Shown: positions 10,948 to 48,830 of the stretch, piece by piece | Layout: every line of letters begins with the position of its first letter | Position numbering within the stretch: the stretch's first letter is position 1 | NCBI GenBank assembly: GCA_903832055.1 | Contig: CAILAC010000016.1 | Coordinates: 434,001-498,000, forward strand | DNA length: 64,000 nt | From: an uncultured Acidobacteriota bacterium | GTDB taxonomy: Bacteria > Acidobacteriota > Terriglobia > Terriglobales > Acidobacteriaceae | Direction of reading: 5' to 3' | Program-made: the position numbers and the translations under genes | The notes under the pieces: generated by a model | What the model saw: only the letters and a program-made list of their open reading frames with translations | Databases searched by the model: none | What the model was told of the DNA's origin: nothing

Positions 10948-10948
10948 A
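10935..10948 (+). promoter_or_regulatory. -10 box placed for a leaderless HIT transcript
   Basis: TATACT at 10935-10940 matches the sigma-70 -10 consensus at five of six positions and ends seven bases before the A of the ATG. No Shine-Dalgarno is present between them. No good -35 is visible. Confidence 0.4.
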
Positions 10949-11517
10949 TGGACCACCTTTGGACGCCCTGGCGCTACCGGTACGTGACTTCTGCCGACAA
11001 GGCGAAGCGGTCAGGTGTTCCCGCAGCCCTGGATGGCTGGCCGGGGGATCTTGGCTGCGTCTTCTGCAATCTGCTTGCGGCCGTCGACCACGCAATTGCA
11101 AACGGCATGACGGCGGACGAAGCTGAAGCTGCGGCGGGGTTGGTGATTCGTGGGACGCATTGCTTCATCTGCCTCAACGCTTATCCATATACGTCTGGGC
11201 ACGTCATGGTCATCCCCTACGCACACGAGGCCAGCCTGGCTGCGCTGCCCGCCGAGACGACCCATGAAATGATGGACCTCGCCCAGAAAACTGAGCAGGT
11301 GATGCAGCAGTTGTACAAGCCGCAAGGGCTCAATTTTGGCATGAACCTGGGCGAAGCAGCGGGCGCTGGCGTGGCCGGCCATCTGCATCTGCATGCCTTG
11401 CCGCGATGGTCAGGCGATACCAGTTTCATGACCACCATCGCCGAAACCCGCGTGCTGCCTGAAGATCTCAACGAAACCTGGCGGCGCATGCGTGCCGGGT
11501 TTGCAGAGTTGATCTAG
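10948..11517 (+). CDS. HIT-family nucleotide hydrolase/phosphorylase
   Basis: A 189-residue histidine-triad protein. The triad is HLHLHALPRW, preceded by the FGMNLGEAAGAGVAGH lead-in typical of the Ap4A-phosphorylase-like (FHIT/Rv2613c-type) branch. The N-terminus MDHLWTPWRYRYV is also characteristic of that branch. Two CxxC-like pairs (CVFC and CFIC) suggest a bound metal. Expected role: cleavage or phosphorolysis of diadenosine polyphosphates or related nucleotides in the cytoplasm. It is convergent with rmuC, and the two stop codons share CTAG at 11514-11517. Confidence 0.88.
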   Translation: MDHLWTPWRYRYVTSADKAKRSGVPAALDGWPGDLGCVFCNLLAAVDHAIANGMTADEAEAAAGLVIRGTHCFICLNAYPYTSGHVMVIPYAHEASLAALPAETTHEMMDLAQKTEQVMQQLYKPQGLNFGMNLGEAAGAGVAGHLHLHALPRWSGDTSFMTTIAETRVLPEDLNETWRRMRAGFAELI

Positions 11518-13001
11518 ACTGCATGGTCTTCTTCGGCGCTTGCTGCAAGGGCGAGTTCGGCTTGCTCTGCGGCGTCAAGTCCTGAAGCATCAAGCAATTT
11601 GATTGGCAACTGCTTGCTGGTGCGAATGCCGGCCTTCTTGAGCATTTCAGTTTGGCGGATCAGGTTTCCTGACCCAGTACTGAGCTTGCCCATCGCGCCG
11701 TCGTAGCTCTTTCCGGCCTTGCGAAGTGACTCCCCGACATCCTCGAGATCGCTGACAAAACCAACGAATTTCTCATAAAGCTTTGTGCCGCGGTCGACAA
11801 TGTCAGCAACGCTGCGGGCCTGCTGTTCCTGCTGCCAGAGGTTGTCAACAATGCGGATGACAAAAAGCAGTGTCGTGGGACCGACCAGCAACACATTGCG
11901 CTCATAAGCCTCTCGCCACAGTTCGCCCCCCTCCTGCATCGCCAGCAAAAACGCCGGTTCAATCGGAATAAACATGACTACGAAGTCGGGCGACTCAAGG
12001 CCGGGAAGCTTGTGATAACTGCGACGCGAAAGACCGTCCAGATGAGCGCGAACGCTGACCAGATGCTGCTTGACTGCGCTCTTTCTTACATCATCGGCGG
12101 CTGCGTTGGCGTAGTCGGTGTAGGCGTTGAGCGATACTTTTGAATCGACGACGAGGTGCCGCCCGCCGGGCAGATTAATGATGACGTCTGTGCGGGAAGC
12201 CTTGCCGCGGGTTCCGTCTTCGTCGACGGTCGCTCCAAAACTCTCCTGAAAGCGGTACTGTTCACCCTCGCGCAAACCTGCCTTCTCAAGCAGGTCGCGC
12301 AAGATGAATTCGCCCCAATCGCCCTGAGTCTTGCTGGAGCCACGCAGAGCGGTCGTGAGGTTCTGAGCCTCGGTCGTGAGTTGCTGGTTCAGCTTTTCCA
12401 GCGACTCAAGCTTGCCGCGCAACTCGACCCGTCCTGCAAGAGAGTCTTTCTGCGCTTCCTCGACCTTGCCGCGAAAATCCTGAATCTGAACCCGCAGCGG
12501 ATTGAGCAACTGGTCGAGATTGGTCTTGTTCTGCTCGGTAAACTTCTTCGATTTGTCCTCGAGTATCTTGCCGGCTAGTGCCTCAAACTGGTGTGTCAGT
12601 TCAACGCGGGCCTCGGTCAACAATTTCAGCTTTTCCTGGCTTGCTTCGCGCTCGTTCTTGAGTTCAGCCTCAAGTTGGCTGATGCGCGCGCCTTGAATGC
12701 GCTCAAGATCGACCTTTGCCTGAAGTTCTGCTCGAAAGCTCTCGCGCTCCTGAGTTCGTTCCTGGGTGGCCTCTCGAATGGTGCGCTCTCGCTCAGCAGC
12801 AAGTGATTCAAAGCCGGCCCGCGCGGCGGACTGCGCTTGAGCATTCGTCAATTCAACACGCACGGCAACCAGTTCGGTTTCGAGTTGCTGATTGCGCAGC
12901 TCAAGCTGCGACTTCTCTGACTTGGCAGTTGTGGAGCGAAGCCAAAAACCAATGACAATTCCGGCAAAGGCAGCGAGCAGGGCGGCAATTAAAGTCTGCA
13001 T
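11514..13001 (-). CDS. rmuC: DNA recombination protein RmuC
   Basis: RmuC is a membrane-anchored, nuclease-fold protein that limits recombination at inverted repeats. The 495-residue product begins with one membrane helix (LIAALLAAFAGIVIGFWL). A long coiled coil to about residue 200 is rich in Glu/Gln/Arg. The conserved RmuC core follows: QGDWGEFILRDLLEKAGL, DVIINLPGGRHLVVDSKVSL, and FVVMFIPIEPAFLLAMQ. The ATG at 13001 is the natural start ahead of the helix. Its stop overlaps that of the convergent HIT gene. Confidence 0.92.
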   Translation of the reverse strand: MQTLIAALLAAFAGIVIGFWLRSTTAKSEKSQLELRNQQLETELVAVRVELTNAQAQSAARAGFESLAAERERTIREATQERTQERESFRAELQAKVDLERIQGARISQLEAELKNEREASQEKLKLLTEARVELTHQFEALAGKILEDKSKKFTEQNKTNLDQLLNPLRVQIQDFRGKVEEAQKDSLAGRVELRGKLESLEKLNQQLTTEAQNLTTALRGSSKTQGDWGEFILRDLLEKAGLREGEQYRFQESFGATVDEDGTRGKASRTDVIINLPGGRHLVVDSKVSLNAYTDYANAAADDVRKSAVKQHLVSVRAHLDGLSRRSYHKLPGLESPDFVVMFIPIEPAFLLAMQEGGELWREAYERNVLLVGPTTLLFVIRIVDNLWQQEQQARSVADIVDRGTKLYEKFVGFVSDLEDVGESLRKAGKSYDGAMGKLSTGSGNLIRQTEMLKKAGIRTSKQLPIKLLDASGLDAAEQAELALAASAEEDHAV

Positions 13002-13330
13002 GGGTGTGCGGGGTTCCCTCTTCGCCTAATGTACGCCTTTTGCCTGTGGGATTTGCAGAATCTTTGGCAGTTTTATCTGCCATGGTCAGGTTTCCAGAGC
13101 TCCGATCCGTCGCCATCTACGGGGGCGGCTTTACATGCCCAAGTGTGCCCCGATAGACTTGGAGATTCGGGGCTGCAGGTCTTGCGTTTCATCGCCAAGC
13201 TGCAGCAAAGTTCGCGGCGAAAGTACCGGCAAGTATGGTAGGCTGCGAATCGAACCTTCAGTCGCACCAGCGCAGCAGCATCTGAGATTGTGGTCCGCTT
13301 TTCATACAAATTTTGAGGAGAGATTGACAC
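13002..13330. other. Intergenic region upstream of acpP
   Basis: About 330 bases between divergent rmuC and acpP. It should contain the acpP-fabF promoter. I see no clear -35/-10 pair, hairpin or small gene; a GAGGAGAG ribosome site for acpP stands at its right end. Confidence 0.5.
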
Positions 13331-13573
13331 ATGGCAGTGGAAGAGAAAGTTAAACAGATTATCGTCGAGCAGCTTCAGGTCGACGAAGCCGAGGTGACCC
13401 CCAACGCCAGCTTCCAGGAAGACCTCGGCGCCGACTCGCTCGACGTAGTTGAGCTGGTCATGCAGTTTGAAGAGGCTTTTGACCTCGAGATTCCCGACGA
13501 AGACGCCGAGAAGATCAAGACCGTCAAGGATGCCGTGGAATATATCGAAAAGAACGCGAAGGCAGGCAAGTAA
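13331..13573 (+). CDS. acpP: Acyl carrier protein
   Basis: An 80-residue acidic protein that carries growing acyl chains on phosphopantetheine. The attachment site is the serine of [14 protein letters not shown], in the usual place near residue 37. Helices II and III ([20 protein letters not shown]) match the canonical ACP closely. A strong GAGGAGAG ribosome site precedes the ATG. fabF starts three bases after its stop, so the pair is translationally linked, a common arrangement in fatty-acid synthesis clusters. Confidence 0.96.
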
Positions 13574-13576
13574 CCT

Positions 13577-14824
13577 GTGAGGCGCCGCGTTGTCATAACG
13601 GGGCTCGGACTGATCTGCGGCGTGGGCAATACGACGCAGGAGATCTGGGGCCAACTGTTGGCTGGAGTCAGTGGTGTGGGACCGATTCAGTCCTTCGACG
13701 CCACCGGCTTTCCAGTCACCTTTGCTGCTGAAGTGAAAAACTTCGACCCGTTGCTCTTCGTTGACAAGAAGGAATCGCGCAAGATGGGCCGGTTTATTCA
13801 TTTGGCCATTGCCGCGACCCAGGAAGCCATGCTGCAATCGGGCCTCGTGATTACGCCGGAAATCGAAGAACGGGTAGGCGTTTTCATCGGCTCAGGTATA
13901 GGCGGCTTCGAGATTATTGAGCGCGAGCATCAGAACCTGATGCAGGGCGGCCCGCGCAAGATTTCTCCCTTCTTTATACCTGCCGCTATCGTCAACATGG
14001 CGGCTGGACAGGTGAGCATCCGCTACGGGGCTAAAGGACCTATTTCTGCGACGGCAACAGCCTGCGCTACCTCAGCCAACTCCATCGGCGACTCCTTCCG
14101 GATGATCCAGCATGGCGAGGCGGACGTGATGATCGCGGGCGGCTCTGAAGCGGCGGTCACGAGCTTAACCGTGGGCGGATTTGCCGCCATGCGTGCGCTC
14201 TCGACGCGCAATGACGACCCCCAAAAGGCCAGCAGGCCGTTTGACAAAGATCGGGACGGATTCGTACTCGGTGAAGGCGCGGGTATGGTCGTCATGGAAG
14301 AACTTGAATTCGCCCAGAGGCGCGGCGCGAAGATTCTCGCCGAAGTCATCGGCTACGGCATGAGCGCGGACGCATATCACATGACCGGCATCGCTCCCGA
14401 GGGCGCAGGGGCCCAGCGCAGCATGCGGGCAGCTTTACGCGACTCGGGCATTGCGCTTACCGACGTCGACTATGTGAATGCTCACGCCACGTCAACTCCC
14501 GCCGGAGACGGCAACGAATCACGGGCCATCGAACTGGTTTTTGGCGAGCACGCGACCAGCAAGAAGCTCAAAGTTTCGAGCACCAAATCGATGACCGGAC
14601 ACTTGCTCGGAGCCGCAGGCGGGCTTGAGGCAGGCATCGCCGCACTGACGCTGATTCATCAAAAGATTCCGCCGACGATCAACCTGGTTACACCGGGGGA
14701 AGATTGTGCGCTGGATTATGTTCCAAACGTGGCCATCGACGCCACAGTCAACGTCGCGCTCTCGAATTCGTTTGGCTTTGGCGGCATCAACGCTACGCTC
14801 ATCATGCGCCGCTGGACTGACTAG
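13577..14824 (+). CDS. fabF: Beta-ketoacyl-ACP synthase II
   Basis: A condensing enzyme elongating acyl-ACP with malonyl-ACP. The 415-residue protein has the thiolase-fold Cys-His-His triad: Cys163 in [13 protein letters not shown], histidine in [11 protein letters not shown], and histidine in [13 protein letters not shown]. The late loop [13 protein letters not shown] is also conserved. The start is GTG at 13577, immediately before [10 protein letters not shown], three bases after the acpP stop; no other start fits. Length and motifs match FabF of many bacteria. A terminator follows at 14847. Confidence 0.95.
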
Positions 14825-14846
14825 TCCGGAAATCTTTTTCAACGTT

Positions 14847-14880
14847 AAAGGGGTGCGGACTGATCAATCCGCGCCCCTTT
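14847..14880 (+). terminator. Terminator of acpP-fabF
   Basis: GGGGTGCGGA pairs with TCCGCGCCCC (one T-G pair), flanked by AAA and TTT. The T-run is short. It lies 22 bases past the fabF stop. Confidence 0.65.
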
Positions 14881-14899
14881 GCATATAGACGACGTTGTT

Positions 14900-15661
14900 T
14901 TAAGAGAAGGCCGCTGCCATTCCTACACTGAAAAGCGTCAGGATCGCCCACCAGCCAAAGACAGCGATGTAGCCTGAGCTTCGTTTGACGCCAGCGACAA
15001 TCGAGATGCCGATCGAGGCCAGAATCAGCGTCCAGATGGTGGTGACGTCGAGCGCGGTGGCCAGAGCCAGCAGCGCCTTGGGCGTCTCGGGCGAGAGATA
15101 GTATCCGATGTTCGTACCCGCCGGGTTGTTGAGGTTAAAGCTCTCCGGGGCTAATCCAACAAACAACGCAACGGTGCCCAATAGAAACTTGATCAGCCCG
15201 GGCAGCCCCGCCCACCAGACCACTGAAAATGCCTGCCAGAAGGTCGCCTTGCCGCCAAAACCAAAGTTGACAGTGCCCATCAAGACGCCTGCCATCACGG
15301 CGACAAAGATGAGCGCCACAACCGGCGAGGCAGCAAATATCCCCTGCGTGAGCATGGCCGCAAACTTCATGTTGGTGGCGCGCTGATCCGCAGGGAGCTT
15401 CTCCATCTGCTCAGCCTGCCTGGGGCTCATTTTGATGTTGTTTTCAGCTACCTGCTGCCAGGTGACCTTGGTTTGGATGCCAAAAAACAACGCATAGCCA
15501 AACAAGGCCGAGAGCACAAAAGGCAGCCACCAACTGGTGTTGCGCTTGATATCAGTAAAGGCTTTGGTTGGCTCAGTGATGGTGCAAATCAGCCGCTGCA
15601 GCTGACTTAAGCCCGGTGCTTCTGGCGGCGGCGGTACGGCGGTGTTCTCAAGATTACTCAT
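14900..15661 (-). CDS. Yip1-family integral membrane protein
   Basis: A 253-residue membrane protein with a Pro-rich cytoplasmic N-terminus, then the Yip1-domain opening ICTITEPTKAFTDIKRNTSWWLPFVLSALFG (PTKAF and W-W-P are the diagnostic pieces). About five hydrophobic helices follow, one ending in ASIGISIVAGVKRSSGYIAV. Bacterial Yip1 proteins are found in many acidobacteria but have no defined function. The stop TAA lies 20 bases past the fabF terminator in the opposite orientation. Confidence 0.75.
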   Translation of the reverse strand: MSNLENTAVPPPPEAPGLSQLQRLICTITEPTKAFTDIKRNTSWWLPFVLSALFGYALFFGIQTKVTWQQVAENNIKMSPRQAEQMEKLPADQRATNMKFAAMLTQGIFAASPVVALIFVAVMAGVLMGTVNFGFGGKATFWQAFSVVWWAGLPGLIKFLLGTVALFVGLAPESFNLNNPAGTNIGYYLSPETPKALLALATALDVTTIWTLILASIGISIVAGVKRSSGYIAVFGWWAILTLFSVGMAAAFS

Positions 15662-15771
15662 GCCAATTTGCCTTTCAAAACCTCAAGAGATGTTCTTGCC
15701 CGCGATTGTACCGCGAGGACATCGCGTCTCGTCAGGAAAAAACATTTCTGGATTTGAAAGCCGCAGAAACC

Positions 15772-16671
15772 TTAGCGTCCGTGGGCAGCCAGCATCGATG
15801 CAGAGGCAACGGGCCCCTGCTTTCCGGGGGCACCCGGAGTTGATTTAGGCACCGCGTAGCTCTTGTAAACCGAAATATGAAAGCAGGACTGGCGAAACTC
15901 TTCTTCAACATCGATTTTGCCTGCCTGCTCCTGGGGAATGAGCCAGGCGCGCAACCAACCGATTTCTCGCGCAGTCATTCCCGCCTTGGCCAGGTCGATG
16001 GTACCGCCGGTCAGGTGAGGAGAGGCAACATCCCCATCGGCTGCGGCGGCATTGCCATTGATGTGACGTAGTTGACGCTGATACGCAACGGTGCGCACAG
16101 CTGAGGTCACTTCAAGTGAACTGCCAGCAAAGGTGGCCGCATGCGCTTTTGCCAAATCGCTGAGAAATTTTGCGGTCCAGGGCCGGCAGTAGCGGCGGTT
16201 CTCGGGCAGGTCAGTATTCACGCGGAGGCTGGCGGAAGTAGGCACAGGAACGAGCGAACCATGAGCGATGCGGTCAGCCAGGTCGGCATCATCCTGAATC
16301 CGCTCCAGACCATCAGCCTCTGCCATTTCGTTCTGGTGCACCAGCGACTCATGCGAACCGCGCAGGGGCGGCGGCATGGAGAATCTAACCGGAATCATGA
16401 CGGCAGCAGGTGGCGCCGAACCGCCATGAACGCGACGGCGTTCCTTGGCAGCACGAATACGGGCATGGGCACGGACTGCTTCCTTCGACCCAGGCAGCAA
16501 CCTTACGGCGTGGGCCTTGGCACGATGTTTTGCGCTGGAGGTCGTGGCAGCTTTGGCATGAGCCGCAGCATGGCCGCGAACGCGCTGGTGCGCCCATGCC
16601 GCTGGTGGAGTCAGAGAAGCAAGAGCGAAGGCCAACAGGGCCAGCGAAGCTATCGAGGATGTCTTGCGCAT
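15772..16671 (-). CDS. Secreted DUF5715-like protein, M15-peptidase-like fold
   Basis: A 299-residue exported protein. ATG 16671 begins a signal peptide (MRKTSSIASLALLAFALASL, cleavage after AWAH or nearby). An Ala/Arg/His-rich segment to about residue 80 looks disordered and basic. The C-terminal half carries SPHLTGGTIDLA and CFHISVYKS, reminiscent of the zinc-ligand motifs (SxHxxGxAxD and xWH) of M15/VanY D,D-carboxypeptidases. This suggests a cell-wall peptidase or a degenerate relative. I associate this architecture with the acidobacterial DUF5715 group from memory, so that name is tentative. The open frame continues upstream to 16962 but overlaps the terminator region and is not used. 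Confidence 0.65.
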   Translation of the reverse strand: MRKTSSIASLALLAFALASLTPPAAWAHQRVRGHAAAHAKAATTSSAKHRAKAHAVRLLPGSKEAVRAHARIRAAKERRRVHGGSAPPAAVMIPVRFSMPPPLRGSHESLVHQNEMAEADGLERIQDDADLADRIAHGSLVPVPTSASLRVNTDLPENRRYCRPWTAKFLSDLAKAHAATFAGSSLEVTSAVRTVAYQRQLRHINGNAAAADGDVASPHLTGGTIDLAKAGMTAREIGWLRAWLIPQEQAGKIDVEEEFRQSCFHISVYKSYAVPKSTPGAPGKQGPVASASMLAAHGR

Positions 16672-16973
16672 ACTTGGGGGCGCGCGGAGAATGCTGAGCT
16701 CTTTCAGTATATCGTTTGCGGCAGCAACTCCTGAGTGGCAAGGGTGGTGCAGGAAGGTCTGATAACAAAGTGACAGACAAAAGGCTAGAGAGCTGGTCAC
16801 AGGGCTACTGAAACAGTAGCAAGGGCAATCGAAGCCGCAAGACAGCTGGAGCCTGATGCCCAGCCCTTCTATCTCCCAGGGTTGCAGGAGCGTCTTTGAA
16901 AGCTGCAATGAAAAGAGGTATCCCCTGAAGGGGATACCTCTTGCTGTTTCACCTGAGATCAAGGTCAGAGGGC
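16672..16973. other. Intergenic region with gyrA terminator
   Basis: About 300 bases between the DUF5715-like gene and the gyrA stop. Apart from the hairpin at 16914-16941 no feature is supported; the promoter of the DUF5715-like gene is presumably here. Confidence 0.4.
16911..16941 (-). terminator. Rho-independent terminator of gyrA
   Basis: A perfect twelve-base stem, AGAGGTATCCCC with GGGGATACCTCT, loops over four bases. On the minus strand TTTT follows it. It is 32 bases past the gyrA stop. Confidence 0.85.
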
Positions 16974-19796
16974 CTAAAGCAGCGTCCCCTGCTCCTCTTC
17001 CTTGAGGTCTTCCGGCGGAATGACTACGGCTGCCGCGACCTTGTCATCCGGCTCAAGGTTGAGCAGCTTGACGCCCTGAGTCGAACGGCCAGCGGCGCGG
17101 ATGGTCTTGGTGTCAATCCGAATCATCTTGCCGAACTGACTGATCACCATCAACTCTGAGGTCTCGTCTACCGGGAGAATATTCATCGTCTTGCCGACTT
17201 TCGGCGTCGCTTTCAGGTTGTTCACACCCTGGGCGCCGCGTGCGGTCAGCCGGTACTCGTCGATATCTGTGCGCTTGCCAAACCCGTTCTCCGTAATCGT
17301 GAGAATAAGGAATTTGCCAATGCCCAGCTTCTCGTCAAGAGCCTTGAGTGCCTTGTGGGCATCGTCCCAGGCTTTTTCGGCGACTTTTTCGGCATTTTTC
17401 AGGCGTTCATCGTCCGGCTTACCCTTGCGGCGGTCTTCACGGGCCTGCTGCAAAGCTTCGCGTGTGGTAGTAAGCCGCTTACGCAGGCTTTCGAGATCAG
17501 CGGTCAAACCAACCCGCGCAGCAAACTCGTCGCGATTGCGGTCGCGCGTCTCGTCAGACAGCGTGACAGCCACTCCTATCACTTCATCATTTTTCTTGAG
17601 AGAAATACCCTTGTTGCCAGCGGCATTGCGACCCATCGGACGCAATCCCTTGCCCGTTTCAGGGTCATGCTCTTCATTAAAGCGGATGGCCATACCCTCG
17701 CGGCTGGCCAGGAAGACCGTCTGCTTGCCGTCGGTAATCGCCGCTTCGATCAGGTCGTCGCTCTTTTCAATGGCGATAGCGATAATGCCTCGCGCCATCA
17801 CATTTGAAAAGTCCTTGAGCGGAGTCTTCTTTACAATGCCATTGCGCGTCGCAAAGAGGATGAATTTACCCTCTTCCTCAAGATTGCGCACCGGGAGAAT
17901 GGTGACTACCTTCTCGCCCGGTTGCAGGCTGAGCAGGCTGGCCATCGACTTGCCTTTGCCCGCGGCGCTCACGTCCGGCACCTCATAGACCTTGAGCCAG
18001 TAAACGCGGCCCGTGTTGGTAAAGCAAAGCAGATAAGCATGCGTCGAATCGATAATCAGCTGCGCGACAAAGTCCTCTTCGCGCGTTTTCATCCCGGTGC
18101 GGCCCGTGCCACCGCGGCGCTGCTGGCGGTAAATTGAAATTGGAGTCCGCTTCAGATAGCCCTGGTGGCTGACTGTGACCGCCACCTGCTCATCTGCGAT
18201 CAGGTCTTCCATCTGCAACTCGGCCGTCTCGTCGACAATCACCGTGCGGCGGGCGTCGCCGTAGCGGTCGCGTACGTCTTCAAGCTCCTTGACGATCACT
18301 TCGCGCAGCCGCACTTCGCTGGCAAGGATCAGCTCATACTCTGAAATCCGAACGCGAATCTCGCCGAGTTCCTTCAAAATTTCGTCAACCGAGAGTTGCG
18401 TCAGGCGATACAGTTGCAGTTCGAGAATCGCATCGATCTGGCGATAGGTCAGACCGCGCTCTTCGCCCGGCAACCTGTCCCGATCCAGATTGACGATGAT
18501 TTCAGTCCCCTTGCCCCAGACAAAGAGATTCTCCCTCGCCTCAGCGCGCGAAGCCGATCCGCGAATGATGCGGATGACGGTATCGAGATTGTCGAGGGCA
18601 ATCTTCAGCCCCTCCAACACATGCTCGCGTTCGCGAGCCTTGCGCAGCAGGTAAACCGTGCGACGACGAACCACTTCAATGCGATGATCGATAAAGCAGC
18701 GAATTGCCTCCGCAAGACCGAGTTCACGGGGCTGGCCGTTGACCACCGCGAGAAAGATCATCGAGAAGCTTTCCTGCATCTGCGTGAACTTGTACAGCTG
18801 GTTCAGCACAATTTCAGGCTGCGAGCCGCGCTTGAGTTCGATCACAATGCGCATGCCATCGCGGTCGCTCTCGTCGCGTACGTCGCTGATCTCGTCGATG
18901 ATCTTCTCGTTCACCAGTTCAGCAATCCGCTCGATGAGCTTGGACTTGTTTACCTGGTAAGGAATCTCGTTGACGATGATGGCTTGCTTTTCTTTCGTCA
19001 GCTGCTCGATCGCCACCTTGGCCCGCATCAGGAAGCGACCGCGGCCGTTCGCGTACGCACCGGGGATTCCGGACTTGCCAAAAATGAACCCACCGGTCGG
19101 AAAATCTGGCCCCTGCACATGCTTCAGCACTTCCAGCAGCCCAGCCCTGGGATCATTCACCAGTTCGATCGTGGCGTTGATGACCTCGGGGAGATTGTGC
19201 GGAGGAATGTTGGTGGCCATGCCGACTGCGATGCCATTGGAACCATTCACTATCAGCGTCGGAATCCGCGTCGGCAGCACCGAGGGCTCTGAGGTCGATT
19301 CGTCGTAGTTGGGGACGAAATCCACCGTCTCCATGTCGATATCGGCCAGCATCTCGCCCGCAATTCGCTGCAGGCGGCACTCTGTATAACGCATTGCCGC
19401 CGGCGAATCGCCATCGACCGAACCAAAATTGCCCTGTCCGTCAATCAGCGGATAGCGCAAAGAAAATGGCTGCGCCATGCGCACCATCGTGTCATAGATT
19501 GCCGTGTCGCCATGAGGATGGAACACACCCATTGTCTGGCCGACCACCTTGGCGCACTTGGTGTACTTCTTGTTGTACTCCAGGCCCATCTCGCTCATCG
19601 CAAAGAGTACCCGGCGATGCACCGGCTTCAGACCGTCCCGCACATCGGGCAGTGCGCGCCCGATGATGACCGACATGGAGTACGCCAGATACGACCGGCG
19701 CATCTCTTCTTCGATATTGATGGGGACAACATTGGAGCCGCCCTGGGGTGGGCCGCCTGCTTCGAGGGGGAGCTGCGGATTCTGATCGTCTGCCAT
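16974..19796 (-). CDS. gyrA: DNA gyrase subunit A
   Basis: GyrA forms the DNA breakage-reunion part of gyrase. Landmarks: [36 protein letters not shown] (the quinolone region), catalytic tyrosine in AAMRYTE (about residue 137), and the GyrA box QRRGGTG, which marks gyrase rather than topoisomerase IV. At the position of E. coli Ser83 there is Thr, while Asp87 is kept. The product has about 940 residues, longer than the usual 820-880, because roughly 80 Lys/Glu/Ala-rich residues are inserted in the C-terminal DNA-wrapping propeller (about 17313-17561). ATG 19796 is chosen; a GTG at 19808 would add four residues, and neither has a clear ribosome site. gyrB is not in the window. Confidence 0.95.
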
Positions 19797-19884
19797 AGGG
19801 GGATTCACAAGAGAACTGTCAGCAAACGAAGAGGCTTTGCGGGTACCGCTGGGTGCATGCCAGAGCTTCGCAGGCTATCCCACT

Positions 19885-19914
19885 ATTTTAACCGTTTCCG
19901 AGGGGTTTAAGCAA
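19885..19914 (-). promoter_or_regulatory. Possible gyrA promoter
   Basis: On the minus strand TTGCTT and TAAAAT are 18 bases apart, the second matching the -10 consensus at five of six positions. It lies about 90 bases before the gyrA start. Confidence 0.35.
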
Positions 19915-20080
19915 ACGAAGATGCCGCAAATAAACCCTTATTTTGCATCAACTTAGCAGGGGTCCAGGTTGACCTCGAATGTATCCCCACGAAGTTCCCT
20001 TGTAAGGCCTACTCCAAGCACGAGAATTCTCCCAGAATTGCAGGGAAAGTGACCAGCGCAACTCGCCATAGTCGTTCGCC

Positions 20081-21313
20081 CTACAAGAGCCCCGGCAAGC
20101 TCAGCAGGCAAAACACCGCCTGCAAGAGCACAACCGCGCCTCCTGAAGCCAGCGCCAGCCTGCCTCGCGGAGTCTCATACGCATCCGCAAACACACCGCC
20201 CACAAACGTGAGAAGAAACGGCAGTGCCCAAAGCAGCGGCGTTCCCGGCACACCAACCGTGATCAGCGTCAGCAGCAGCAACGTCACCAGCAGCGGAGCG
20301 GTGTTGCCAAAATAGAGCGTCTTCCGCAATCCCAGGTAAAGCAACAGCGCCGCCCCGGCAGACACCGTCATGCCCGCATTGCTCAGTGTCCAGAAAAAAT
20401 GCCGCGCCGGATCCAGCGAAAACCCAAGATGAGCCGCGTCTGACCGGAAAAGGTAGCTGAAAGCATCCGCCGAAAACCCATAGCAGGCAAACAGCAGCAC
20501 AAACGCGCCAATCGTCGCCGTCAGCAGTACCGGCAGCACCTGGCTGCGCCGCCCCTCGGCAATCCACAACATCATCACAAATCCAAGCGCCACCAGCACC
20601 GGCAGCGCGGCGATATGCGAGGCCGCCACCACCGCAAAGCTCACCGTCAACAGCACAATTCTGGGGCGCCACTTGTTCCTCGGCCCCTGCATCGCGTGTG
20701 CCACGCCAATGCACGTATAAAGCCCGCCAAAAAAACCCACCGCCGTCAAAATTTCAGGATTGGGCGCTACCGAAACCCGCAAGATAGCCGGTGAGAAACA
20801 GTAAAGCGCCAGTGCCGTGTACCCACCAAAGTTCCCAAACAGCCGCCGCGTCACCCACCATAGCGCCCCGCCCAGCACCACGCCCGCCAATATGAATGGC
20901 AACCGCAACAGCAGCAGCACGTGAGTCAATTGGTGACGGAGTTCCCAGGTCGACGCCGACGCATCCAGCGTCTGAATGACCTTGTCTTCCGGCTTGCGAA
21001 AGTTGTCCGCAAACCGCTCCAGCGCAATATTCAGCGTAAGTGGCAGCCCAGCAACACGATACGCCAGCACTCCGTCATGAATGTTCCCGCATGAAGTGAA
21101 GTAACCAGCCAGCGGCGAAGGTCGCTCCCACATTTCGCGGCCGCAGCGTGCGTACTGGTAGTCCTTCTCAGTGAGCGTCTGATGCGACGTCAGCCAGCCC
21201 GCCTGGGCCACAAACAGCAGCAACAACACCGCGGCAATGCGCTGCGGCATATTGAAGCGAAAGCGGCGAAGTGTCGCGAAACGGACAGGCATGCAGGAAG
21301 TCGATGGCTCCAT
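20081..21313 (-). CDS. Polytopic membrane protein, possibly GT-C glycosyltransferase-like
   Basis: A 410-residue protein with eight to ten predicted membrane helices (for example [41 protein letters not shown] and [14 protein letters not shown]). A loop after the first helix carries [15 protein letters not shown]. An acidic residue in that loop followed by a long periplasmic segment resembles GT39/ArnT-type lipid-linked sugar transferases, but no diagnostic motif is secure, so function stays open. The start could also be 21292 or 21250. It follows the dienelactone hydrolase gene on the same strand by 55 bases and may be co-transcribed with it. Confidence 0.6.
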
Positions 21314-21368
21314 TCCAGTCTACCGGAGCCAAACCGGCAGCCTCTTCCCCCGCCGCGCCCAGCGCGCA

Positions 21369-22151
21369 TCAGTTCCGCGTATTGGTACTCCCCGCCGGTC
21401 CGCTCAGGTCGCCCTGCCCCAGCTTGCGATGAAACAGGTCCAGCGCCAACCCCATGCACTGCCGCGCCAGCTCCGGATCGTACCTTGCGCCCTCATCGCG
21501 CAGAAACGCATGCGCCCCGTTCACCTCGTGCCAGGTAAACTGCGCGCCTACCTCATTCAGCCGCGCCAATACGGCCATCCGCCCTTCCAGGGGAATATGC
21601 GGGTCCTGCCGCCCCCATATCATCAGCAATTCCCCACGAATATCCGTCGCCCTGGCCAGCGAATCGTCCTGCATCCCCTTGCCCAGCCCACGCTTGTGAA
21701 TGTCGGTCGCATAGAAGCACACCGTCGCCCGCACATCCGCGTTCAGCGCCGCCCGGTACGCCAGATGCCCGCCAATACAGATACCCATCGCTCCCAGTTG
21801 CCCGGTGCAATCCGGCCGCGTAGCCAAATGATCAAGTACTGCTCGCGAATCGGCATCATAGCTGGCCAGTTCCTTGGTCGTCTTCAGCGCGTTGCCGCGC
21901 TCGGTCCCCGCCTGGTCATAGGGAAATACCTCGCCCGCCTTCTCAAATTCGTGATAAATCTCTGGCATCGCGACGACGTATCCGTGCCCCGCCAGCATCC
22001 GCGCCGTCCGGGCAATCGGCCCCGTCACCTGAAATATCTCCGAGAAAAACACAATCCCCGGATACCGCCCCGCCGCCGCCGGCCTCACAATATGCGTCCG
22101 CATCGGCCCCCACGGGGTCGTCAACTCCACCTGCTCCTCAACCACAATCAT
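21369..22151 (-). CDS. Dienelactone hydrolase family protein
   Basis: A 260-residue cytosolic alpha/beta hydrolase without signal peptide. SEIFQVTG is the early acidic motif, [12 protein letters not shown] holds the cysteine nucleophile, GRQDPHIP the aspartate and [11 protein letters not shown] the histidine. The ATG at 22151 is used because GGGAGAG lies just upstream; the frame extends 30 bases further without support. These enzymes open lactones from ring-cleavage pathways or act as general esterases. It is divergent from ruvB, 126 bases apart. Confidence 0.85.
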
Positions 22152-22277
22152 CGCGCTCTCCCTGCAAATCTCCGCTGCCACACCACTCTACCAGCCATCG
22201 GCGTATCCAAAACGCCAATCGGGGAATTTGGAACTGCAAGCCACCGCCACCCGCAACTTGATAGACTTGCCCGTAGC

Positions 22278-23315
22278 ATGGCCCCCAAACCAAACGCCGA
22301 TCCCGAACGACTCGTCTCCGCCGCCCGCGCCGGTGAAGAAGACAGCTTCGAACTCAAGCTCCGCCCCCGCTGGCTCGGCGAATTCATCGGCCAGTCCAAA
22401 GCCAAGGAGCAGCTCGCCATCGCCCTCGAAGCTGCCAAATCCCGCGGCGAAGCGCTTGACCACGTCCTGCTCTTCGGCCCCCCAGGCCTCGGCAAAACTA
22501 CCCTCGCCACCATCATCGCCAACGAAATGGACGTGGGCTTTCAGCAAACATCAGGCCCGGCGCTGCAGATTCAGGGAGATCTGACCGCGATCCTCACCAA
22601 TCTGCGCGAAAAACAGGTCCTCTTCCTCGACGAAATCCACCGCATCCAGGCCGTACTCGAAGAAAAACTCTACACCGCCCTCGAAGACTACAAACTCGAC
22701 ATCATCATCGGCCAGGGTCCCGCCGCGCGCACCCACGTCATGGAGATTCGACCCTTCACCTTCGTCGCCGCCACCACCCGCCCCGGCCTGCTCTCATCGC
22801 CGCTGCGCTCCCGCTTTGGCATCATGCTGCGCCTCGAGTTCTATACCGAGGAAGAACTCCGCGTCATCGTCGAGCGCTCCGCCGAAGTCATGCAGGTCCC
22901 CATTGACGCCGACGGCGCCGCTGAAATCGCACTCCGTTCCCGCGGCACACCGCGCATCGCCAACCGCCTCCTGCGCCGAGTCCGCGACTACGCCCAGGTC
23001 CGCGGCAACGGCGACATCGACCGCAAAACCGCCCACGCCGCCCTCACGATGCTCGAAGTGGACGCGCACGGCTTCGACGAAATCGACCGCCGCCTGCTCA
23101 TGACCATCATTCAGAAGTACGACGGCGGCCCCGTCGGCCTCGGCACCCTCGCCGCCATCCTCTCTGAAGACGAAGACGCCCTCGAAGAGGTCTACGAACC
23201 GTTCCTCATCCAGATCGGCTTCCTTGACCGCACCCCGCGCGGCCGCGTCGCAACTCGGCTCGCCTATGAACACTTCGGCCTGCCCCTGCCCCACAAGCAG
23301 ACACCACTCTTCTAA
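22278..23315 (+). CDS. ruvB: Holliday junction branch-migration helicase RuvB
   Basis: The hexameric AAA+ motor that drives RuvA-bound Holliday junctions. The 345-residue protein has Walker [12 protein letters not shown], Walker B LFLDEIHR, sensor [17 protein letters not shown] and the C-terminal winged helix ending [21 protein letters not shown]. The open frame runs back to 21237, but those 347 upstream codons are antisense to the dienelactone hydrolase; the real start is ATG 22278, the usual place relative to [12 protein letters not shown]. It has no obvious Shine-Dalgarno. ruvA and ruvC are not adjacent. A thioredoxin-fold gene follows after 26 bases. Confidence 0.95.
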
Positions 23316-23341
23316 TCGAAACCTCAGCTGGAGAAGCACAC

Positions 23342-23899
23342 ATGGCTCGCACTGAATCCACAATGCTGGAACTCGGCACCATCGCCCCCGATTTTGCATT
23401 GACTGACGTCGTTACCGGAAACATCGTCCACCGCGATGACTCCCGTGGTCGCAAAGCGCTCCTGGTCATGTTTATCTGTACCCACTGCCCTTACGTAAAG
23501 CACGTCGAAACAGCGCTAGCACAGCTGGGCTCCGATTATGCTCAAAAGCCGATCTCCATCATCGCCATCAGTAGCAATGACGCCGTCACTCATCCCGACG
23601 ACGGCCCCGTCGGACTCAGGCAGCAGGCACTCACCATGGACTTTCGGTTTCCCTACCTCTATGACGAAACCCAGCAAGTAGCCAGCGCATACCACGCCGC
23701 ATGCACCCCAGATTTCTTCCTCTTCGATGCGGATTTCCATCTCGTCTACCGTGGGCAGTTCGACTCGAGCCGCCCCGGCAGCGGCGTCCCCGTCACCGGC
23801 AAAGATCTGCGCGCCGCAATCGACGCTGTCCTCGAGGGCAAGTCAGTTCCAGCAGACCAGCACCCCAGCCTCGGCTGCAATATCAAATGGAAAGAATAA
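23342..23899 (+). CDS. Thioredoxin-fold (AhpC/TSA-like) protein
   Basis: A 185-residue protein with the peroxiredoxin-like opening LGTIAPDFALTDVVTG and a CxxC in ICTHCPYVKHVETALAQL. The CPYVKH context identifies the small group of thioredoxin-like proteins often annotated as thiol-disulfide isomerase or alkyl hydroperoxide reductase-like. No signal peptide is present, so it should act in the cytoplasm. The cis-Pro region is HAACTPDFFLFD. The ATG has a GGAGAAG site. It may be expressed with ruvB. Substrate unknown. Confidence 0.8.
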   Translation: MARTESTMLELGTIAPDFALTDVVTGNIVHRDDSRGRKALLVMFICTHCPYVKHVETALAQLGSDYAQKPISIIAISSNDAVTHPDDGPVGLRQQALTMDFRFPYLYDETQQVASAYHAACTPDFFLFDADFHLVYRGQFDSSRPGSGVPVTGKDLRAAIDAVLEGKSVPADQHPSLGCNIKWKE

Positions 23900-23914
23900 A
23901 CAGACGATAAATAA

Positions 23915-23954
23915 CCCACCCTGGCTGGACCACCATTGGTCCATCCAGGGTGGG
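23915..23954. terminator. Strong hairpin between convergent genes
   Basis: CCCACCCTGG and CCAGGGTGGG pair, continuing through TGGACCA/TGGTCCA after a single mismatch. It separates the thioredoxin-fold gene from galU. On the minus strand TTATTTAT follows, so it may serve galU; the plus side lacks a T-run. Confidence 0.6.
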
Positions 23955-23970
23955 CCTGTAAGTGATAAAA

Positions 23971-24846
23971 CTACAGCGTCAACCCCTTGAGATACTCACG
24001 GAACTTGCCGCCAAGATCTGCCCGGTTCAGCGCAAATTCGACAGTCGCCTGCAGCATCCCAAACTTGTCCCCGGCATCAAACCTCTTGCCCTCAAACGTA
24101 AATCCGTATACTTTCTCATGCTCCAGCAGTCCCAGGATTCCGTCTGTCAACTGCAGTTCGCCGCCTGCACCAAAACCCGTCTTCTCCAGTAACTCAAATA
24201 CCCGTGGCGTCAAAACATAGCGGCCAATAATTGCCTGCTTCGACGGAGCCACTTCAAACTTGGGCTTCTCCACCATGCCCGTGCACTCATAGATCCGTTC
24301 GTCACTCGGGTCCTGCGCGCCAGCCAACACGCCATAAGCACTGATCCCCGGCCCTTCAATCGTCATCGTAGCCAGCACTGACCCCTGCCGCTCGTCATAT
24401 ACATCCATCATCTGCTTCAGACAAGGCACCTTGGCATCAATCACATCGTCCGCGAGAATTACCGCAAAAGGTTCATCGCCAACCAGTTGCTTTGCACATA
24501 ACACAGCGTGTCCAAGACCGAGCGGCTCCTTCTGCCGGACATAGGAGATTCGCGCCAGAGAAGATATCTTGCGCTATATCTCCAGCAACTCCTTCTTGCC
24601 CTTCTTCTCCAGCGTTGCATCCAGTTCATAGCTGATGTCAAAGTGGTCTTCCATCGCGCCCTTGCCGCGCCCCGTTATGAAGATGATGTGCTCAATACCT
24701 GAAGCAATCGCCTCTTCTACGCCATATTGAATAATCGGCTTATCGACAAGCGGCAACATTTCTTTGGGGATTACCTTGGTTGCGGGGAGAAAGCGTGTGC
24801 CCAATCCGCCTGCGGGAAATACTGCTGTGCGTACCTTCTTGCTCAT
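23971..24846 (-). pseudogene. galU: UTP-glucose-1-phosphate uridylyltransferase, interrupted by in-frame TAG
   Basis: GalU makes UDP-glucose from UTP and glucose-1-phosphate. Both halves are complete and in the same frame. The 5' part (24846 to 24577) has the nucleotide-binding start [18 protein letters not shown] and [23 protein letters not shown] at 24574-24576, codon 91, follows KKELLEI. Reading through it, homology continues at once: RKISSLARISYVRQKEPLG, then LGHAVLCAKQLVGDEPFAV, VILADDVI, MVEKP, IIGRYVLTP, FDAGDKFG. No base is gained or lost, and total length (about 290 codons) is normal. The codon may be a real nonsense mutation, a sequencing error or a suppressed stop; other genes here end in TAG, so the code is not altered. 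Confidence 0.85.
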
Positions 24847-47345: not shown

Positions 47346-48830
47346 ATGCCAACCGTCTCGCTGTCTCCTGAAGTCACCGCCAAGTACGAGGTCGTCATCG
47401 GCCTTGAAGTCCACGTGCAGCTGCTCACCACCACCAAAGCCTTCTGCGGCTGCGCGAATCACTACGGTTCGGCCCCTAATACCAACGTCTGCCCAGTCTG
47501 CCTAGGCCTGCCCGGAGCACTGCCCGTGCTCAATCGCCAGGCAGTCGAGTTCGCCTCCCTCACCGGGCTCGCGCTGAACTGCAAAATCCGCGAGCGGTCT
47601 GTCTTTGCCCGCAAAAACTACTTCTACCCTGATTCCCCCAAGGGCTATCAAATCTCCCAGTTCGACAAGCCCATCGCCGAGCACGGCTGGATTGACCTGC
47701 TCGACACCCCAACCTCCGACGGCTCTCCAAAACGCATCGGCGTTACCCGAGCCCACATGGAAGAAGATGCCGGCAAAAGCATCCACGATGGCTTCGCCGA
47801 CTCTGCTACGCGCACCTACGTTGACCTAAACCGCTGCGGCACCCCCCTGGTAGAAATCGTCTCAGAACCCGATATGCGCACCCCCGACGAGGCCTACGAA
47901 TACCTCACTCGCCTCAAGGAAATCCTTTTGTTTGCAGGCGTTTCCGACTGCAACATGGAAGAGGGTTCGCTGCGCTGCGACGCCAATGTGAGCATCATGC
48001 CACGCGGAGCAAAGCAGTTTGGCACCAAGGTTGAAGTCAAGAACGTCAACAGCTTCCGCTACGTCCGCGCTGCGCTCGAATACGAAATTGAGCGCCAGAT
48101 TGAAATCGTCGAAGCTGGCGGCATCATCAAGCAGGAGACGCGGCTGTGGAGCCAGCCCGAGGGCCGCACTTTTTCCATGCGGTCGAAAGAGCAGGCCCAC
48201 GACTACCGCTACTTCCCTGAACCGGATTTGCCACCGCTGGTGGTTTCTGAGGAATGGCTGGCAGAAATTGCCTCAACCATGCCGGAGCTGCCGGAGGCGC
48301 GGCGCAAGCGCATGATCGCCGAGTACGAACTGGCCGAGCAGGACGCGCAGACTCTTACGGCCACACGCGAATTTGCCGACCAGTTTGAAGAAGTGGCGCG
48401 CACGGCAAAGAGCCCGCGCCGGGTGGCCAACCTGCTGCTCTCAGAACTTGGGGGAAGGCTGAAGGCTGCCGGGATTGAGCTGGAGCATTCGCCGGTTTCG
48501 CTGCGGGGCATTGTGCAGGCTGCGGATTTGATGGAAGAGGGCAAGATCAGTTCCAAGCAGTTGAAGCAGCTTTTTGATATTTGCTTTGAAAAATCTGAGG
48601 ATTTTCCGACGGTTTATGAGCGGGAGAAGCCGCAGCAGATTTCTGACGCGGGGGCGATAGAAGCGCTGATCGATCAGGTAATTGAGGCGAATCCTGCACA
48701 GGTGGCGCAGTACCGTGGGGGGAAAAAGACGGTCGCGGCATTCTTTGTGGGGCAGGTGATGCGGGCTTCAAAGGGGCAGGCGAATCCGGCGCTTTTGAAT
48801 GAACTGGTGACGAAAAAGCTGGATGGATAG
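47346..48830 (+). CDS. gatB: Asp-tRNA(Asn)/Glu-tRNA(Gln) amidotransferase subunit B
   Basis: GatB is the kinase/tRNA-binding subunit of GatCAB, which amidates misacylated Glu-tRNA(Gln). The 494-residue protein has VIGLEVHVQL, a zinc site CGCANHYG...CPVCLGLPG, LNRCGTPLVEIVSEPD, GSLRCDANVS and EVKNVNSF, with the helical and YqeY-type tail (GQVMRASKGQANPALLNELV). Length is normal. The first two thirds use C-ending codons and the last third G-ending codons; the change comes near 48.1-48.3 kb and coincides with a reversal of strand composition. gatA and gatC are not adjacent. Confidence 0.95.
   Translation: MPTVSLSPEVTAKYEVVIGLEVHVQLLTTTKAFCGCANHYGSAPNTNVCPVCLGLPGALPVLNRQAVEFASLTGLALNCKIRERSVFARKNYFYPDSPKGYQISQFDKPIAEHGWIDLLDTPTSDGSPKRIGVTRAHMEEDAGKSIHDGFADSATRTYVDLNRCGTPLVEIVSEPDMRTPDEAYEYLTRLKEILLFAGVSDCNMEEGSLRCDANVSIMPRGAKQFGTKVEVKNVNSFRYVRAALEYEIERQIEIVEAGGIIKQETRLWSQPEGRTFSMRSKEQAHDYRYFPEPDLPPLVVSEEWLAEIASTMPELPEARRKRMIAEYELAEQDAQTLTATREFADQFEEVARTAKSPRRVANLLLSELGGRLKAAGIELEHSPVSLRGIVQAADLMEEGKISSKQLKQLFDICFEKSEDFPTVYEREKPQQISDAGAIEALIDQVIEANPAQVAQYRGGKKTVAAFFVGQVMRASKGQANPALLNELVTKKLDG

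Follow-up and report, generated by a model that had tools for sequence, protein, structure and literature searches.

The 64,000-nucleotide stretch of acidobacterial DNA analyzed here (hereafter, the window) contains a galU gene (UTP--glucose-1-phosphate uridylyltransferase) that is interrupted by an in-frame amber codon (Table 1). The plus strand of this segment is non-coding, and translation of the minus strand yields one GalU frame. When the TAG is read through, the protein scores 351.6 bits over positions 1-261 of the TIGR01099 profile and thus belongs to this family (cut-off 326.8); as terminated, both the first 90 residues (136.4 bits) and the remainder (201.2 bits) fall under the cut-off. 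The two halves cover adjoining ranges of the profile, and both also match the Pfam NTP_transferase family. The search of the read-through protein against solved structures identified 16 distinct sequences at E <= 1e-20, named UDP-glucose pyrophosphorylases, with 5vct and 5j49 as the best matches. In tblastn alignments, the proteins of two related genomes (G011 and G004) cross the TAG site unbroken, with identical residues at 14 of the 15 positions before and 15 of the 15 after it, indicating that there is no frameshift at this point. The initial annotation of this DNA, which reported a galU frame with a single in-frame TAG at 24574-24576 and no frameshift, is thus confirmed, with the gene on the minus strand and both halves matching TIGR01099.

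Table 1. Features of the interrupted galU gene (window coordinates)
Feature	Coordinates	Strand	Basis or remarks
galU, UTP--glucose-1-phosphate uridylyltransferase	24846..23971	minus	876 bases, 291 codons + stop; TIGR01099
In-frame amber TAG, galU codon 91 of 291	24576..24574	minus	translation, alignment of relatives; Ser codon in the nearest relatives
galU N-terminal 90 residues	24577..24846	minus	TIGR01099 1.3e-39, profile 1-85
galU C-terminal 200 residues, intact frame	23974..24573	minus	TIGR01099 2.1e-59, profile 88-261
galU terminal stop, likewise TAG	23971..23973	minus	translation

The upstream neighbor of galU, on the same strand, encodes a DUF885 protein, and the downstream, convergent neighbor encodes an AhpC/TSA-type protein; a promoter and terminator scan of the surroundings yielded 2 promoter-like sites (1.2 expected) and 0 terminator-like sites. 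Elsewhere in the window, the GC skew shifts near position 48000, from -0.28 (44-48 kb) to +0.14 (48-52 kb), and no exact DnaA box TTATNCACA is present in the whole window.

If the TAG terminates translation, the N-terminal 90 residues, including a segment of 17 residues that we take to be the nucleotide-binding motif, are expected to be the sole product, whereas the C-terminal 200 residues are expected to be untranslated. The first in-frame start past the TAG is a GTG at 24504 (codon 115; ORF 23971..24504), and a product initiated there would be devoid of the N-terminal motif. This GTG could be construed as the start of the second fragment of a split GalU, with translation restarting past the stop and the two separately made fragments then assembled. 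We find this scheme hardly credible: the GTG lies 24 codons past the stop, which would leave residues 92-114 in neither fragment, an AAGGAG sequence ends 21 bases upstream of it, a distance too great by the usual spacing, and the GalU matches of the relatives, among the matches listed, have no internal stop.

We further examined codon 91 in relatives, using 130 related loci (L005-L114 and L145-L164; some genes are held twice, e.g., as L035 and L146). All 130 loci matched GalU, and none contained a stop in the best match; together with the two coding halves in one frame, this indicates that the TAG is more than a chance occurrence. Among the 128 loci that cover codon 91, it encodes Ser in 79, Val in 31, Ala in 10, Thr in 5, Ile in 2, Cys in 1 and Gln in 0. 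The commonest form is the Ser codon TCG (53 of the 128), and CAG is not found at any of these loci. The five nearest rows of the alignment, which represent four distinct genes, have TCG in this position, and the sixth has TCC; the two nearest rows, taken as one gene, encode a protein that is 96.6% identical to the one analyzed here. Given that the nearest relatives carry TCG and none carries CAG, the change is a C-to-A transversion that converted TCG to TAG, and the earlier proposal of a C-to-T change from CAG is not supported. The GalU of JANYDG010000091.1 (MAG 336R_metabinner_50; L035), with the same 96.6% protein identity and an equal gene length (876 bases), comes from a 15.7-kb contig with 11 ORF matches spread across positions 10948-24846 of the window, and differs in having TCG (Ser) in place of TAG at codon 91.

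The wider survey yielded the same picture. A match above the galU cut-off was detected in 54 of the 61 genomes surveyed at ranks from genus to class, and the galU described here is, among the matches listed, the only GalU-level match with an internal stop. At the family level, 143 of the 150 genomes have a GalU match at 1e-60 (139 above the cut-off), and an internal stop is present in 1 of the 147 listed matches, again the galU in question. A GalU match is found in 109 of the 110 good-quality genomes of the family, so that loss of this gene should be costly. Comparison with close relatives, proposed in the initial annotation as a check, therefore showed that no examined relative's GalU match carries the stop. 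Three genomes of the same genus that are 86-88% complete (G007, G010 and G014) have weak matches only, none at the GalU level, either from incompleteness or from loss. Elsewhere in the order, at least one weak NTP-transferase match (41 bits), which represents another gene (G040:C18:125235-125690), contains a TAG, and this match may simply extend beyond the end of the gene.

The pattern of changes along the gene bears on the age of the lesion. In the comparison with the nearest relative, G002, polarized with G004 and G011, 37 of the codon changes on the branch leading to the interrupted galU are synonymous (9 lie upstream and 28 downstream of the stop), and a single one, besides the stop, alters an amino acid; the G002 branch shows 31 synonymous and 4 amino-acid changes, and a further 32 synonymous and 4 amino-acid changes could be assigned to neither branch. 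The pairwise dN/dS against G002 is 0.023 for the whole gene, 0 before the stop and 0.033 after it. If the gene has evolved neutrally since the lesion, the age of the lesion is less than about 3-9% of its own branch, as estimated from raw counts with a Poisson bound. A long-standing pseudogene is rejected by the ratio of one amino-acid to 37 synonymous changes, with no second stop and no split match in galU. These counts are compatible with a recent mutation, with an error or with a gene that remains in use, and the lesion appears to be either very young or not real. Of the three options that had been raised previously, namely a recent lesion, an error or readthrough, the first two are supported, whereas readthrough finds no support in the analysis of decoding described below.

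The genome that contains the window consists of 4,568,361 bases in 18 contigs and is 98.83% complete. The initial annotation had suggested a search for a second galU; in the TIGR01099 profile search of this genome, a single locus reached the galU cut-off, and the other NTP_transferase relatives are weaker. Altogether, six loci in the genome, galU among them, match NTP_transferase. Four of the five others were scanned and correspond to RmlA (503 bits, above its cut-off), GlgC (likewise above its own cut-off), and relatives of mannose-1-phosphate guanylyltransferase and MurU, both below their cut-offs; the fifth, at C2:236689, scores 31.5 bits and lies outside the scanned four. These loci, as weaker relatives, were rejected as candidates for a second galU. 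The eukaryotic-type UDPGP family (PF01704) has no match in this genome, but as the control genomes have no match either, this negative carries no weight. The genome also encodes two UDPG/GDP-mannose dehydrogenase-family proteins, suggesting that users of UDP-glucose may exist.

A changed genetic code had been considered unlikely, and this assessment holds: TAG terminates 62 of the 167 conserved genes in 464 kb of the contig and 15 of the 34 in the window, and RF1 (prfA) is present in the genome (520 bits, no internal stop). Among the 167 conserved genes, TAG is the commonest stop, followed by C in 27 of the 62 cases; if every TAG is taken as sense, the TAG-ended conserved genes lengthen by 0 to 518 residues. 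ARAGORN typed each of the 45 Rfam tRNA matches in this 98.83% complete genome (41 anticodons), and none has the CUA anticodon. A loose motif for an amber anticodon loop and T-loop gave 5 matches, compared with 37 in the reversed control, and ARAGORN called a tRNA at 0 of the 5; the suppressor tRNA(CUA) that had been suggested as a possibility was accordingly found neither among the 45 tRNA genes nor by the motif search. One candidate suppressor, L182, which resembles a tRNA in its T-loop, was rejected: no anticodon stem could be discerned, ARAGORN did not call it, and it matched no Rfam tRNA model. A tRNA-Sec match (50.2 bits, gathering score 47 bits) was likewise dismissed as a tRNA-Ser(TGA), according to ARAGORN, that is already among the 45. 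For PylS, the best score in the genome is 19.6 bits, against a cut-off of 178.15; in the control, 1 of the 14 genomes was above the cut-off. The genome contains two tRNA-Cys(GCA) genes that differ in sequence (C16:598114-598186 and C17:58738-58809). Within the reach of these tools, general recoding of TAG is excluded, whereas leakiness at a low level may occur. The interrupted galU shares with amber-recoded genes of the pyrrolysine and suppressor-tRNA systems an in-frame UAG within a conserved coding frame but differs from them in that RF1 is present, no CUA tRNA was found in the genome and no PylS scored above the cut-off, and also in that the UAG is not conserved (0 of the 128 related loci; 1 of the 147 listed family matches, the gene itself).

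These observations bear on the possibility that near-cognate tRNAs, or a suppressor that escaped detection, read through the amber codon to a useful extent, such that some full-length GalU is made. Both halves of galU are conserved, codon 91 is permissive (the six amino acids found in this position across the 128 related loci), and the base directly after the TAG is C, a weak termination context. Nevertheless, we consider such readthrough unlikely because the TAG is present in no examined relative, the searches for a CUA tRNA, PylS and amber motifs had the outcomes given above, with RF1 in place, and, with TAG being the commonest stop and often followed by C, efficient suppression would extend many proteins. 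In TAG reporters of Escherichia coli, mean readthrough is reported, in the available part of the study, to range from 0.01 to 0.80% depending on temperature and medium, with means of <=0.8% at 25 C and 0.02-0.03% at 37 C (PMC11126739). Acidobacteria are listed as a phylum among the bacteria with unusual allo-tRNAs in the accessible portion of a review (PMC7609411); tRNAs with 4-base-pair anticodon stems are described in another article, the available sections of which do not mention Acidobacteria (PMC13092985). A more elaborate scenario, in which an unrecognized suppressor or condition-dependent readthrough supplies a low level of GalU and thereby makes the synthesis of surface sugars switchable, seems very improbable.

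The remaining alternative is a sequence or assembly error, that is, one wrong base in the consensus, with galU intact in the organism, which we hold to be nearly as likely as a mutation. To assess the quality of the consensus, we compared 135 conserved ORFs of G011 and 136 of G004, none overlapping another, with 464 kb of the contig (out of the 4.57-Mb genome) and recorded any stop within a best match and any second match at E <= 1e-20, a design to which silent and missense errors are invisible. Matches with at least 50% identity were obtained for 94 ORFs in each case (40,402 residues for G011 and 41,522 for G004). The best match contains an internal stop in 5 genes in the comparison with G011 and in 3 with G004, galU being included in both sets, and, among the 94 conserved genes, galU alone has a stop that is flanked on either side by conserved sequence. 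The other internal stops in the 464 kb are located near the ends of matches, within 5' extensions that align poorly or at the natural C-terminus; further candidates for in-frame stops in the window and the contig appear to be shadow frames, over-extended 5' ends or, again, the natural C-terminal end. Split matches, as would result from frameshifts, were not listed for any of the 94 conserved genes in the 464 kb. Since neither another convincing stop nor a split match was seen, the consensus is not poor overall, which argues against an error, and a consensus of ample coverage rarely contains an error of this kind.

Several observations, however, favor an error: the lesion is a single substitution without decay, with purifying selection on both halves of the gene, galU is near-universal in the family, and a C-to-A (G-to-T) change is a known library oxidation artifact. 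The provenance of the genome has to be considered as well. The sole 16S match detected (C8:80-941) is cut at the end of a contig, with the main match covering 865 of the 1533 positions, and, given that the 16S search matched 9 of the 14 control genomes and missed 5, a complete second copy could have escaped it. The usual spacer tRNAs, tRNA-Ile(GAT) and tRNA-Ala(TGC), are absent from the tRNA set of the genome. The cut 16S gene and the absence of the spacer tRNAs may reflect a metagenome-type assembly, in which case a consensus error becomes more plausible and one would be less inclined to expect that the loss of a conserved gene is fixed.

Weighing these lines of evidence, we favor, with roughly even confidence, the explanation that this galU is an ordinary, single-copy Acidobacteriaceae gene that has lost its function through a very recent nonsense mutation. 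Under this explanation, a C-to-A change would have made the Ser codon TCG at codon 91 into TAG, translation would stop after 90 residues, and the resulting fragment would probably be inactive, since 201 of the 291 residues would be absent. The strain would then be unable to make UDP-glucose via GalU. Conceivably, such a mutant was kept through phage selection on surface sugars or through drift in one lineage. In Pseudomonas aeruginosa, according to the available part of the respective study, phage-resistant mutants have lost galU through either a one-base deletion or large deletions, and the one-base mutant has a truncated LPS core (PMC10714927). The small galU lesion of the phage-resistant mutant PAER6b is comparable to the one described here; as far as the same source reports, PAER6b differs in that its lesion is a one-base deletion that was selected in the laboratory and its phenotype, including slower growth, was tested (PMC10714927). 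In the present case, the lesion is a nonsense codon known from the genome sequence alone.

If the codon is an error, it is a caution against concluding from a single codon of a draft genome that a metabolic step is missing. A specialist would be surprised by neither outcome, real or error. A real mutation would add another natural loss, of an already known kind, of a near-universal sugar-nucleotide gene, and the strain would make it possible to test how an acidobacterium copes without the GalU route to UDP-glucose.
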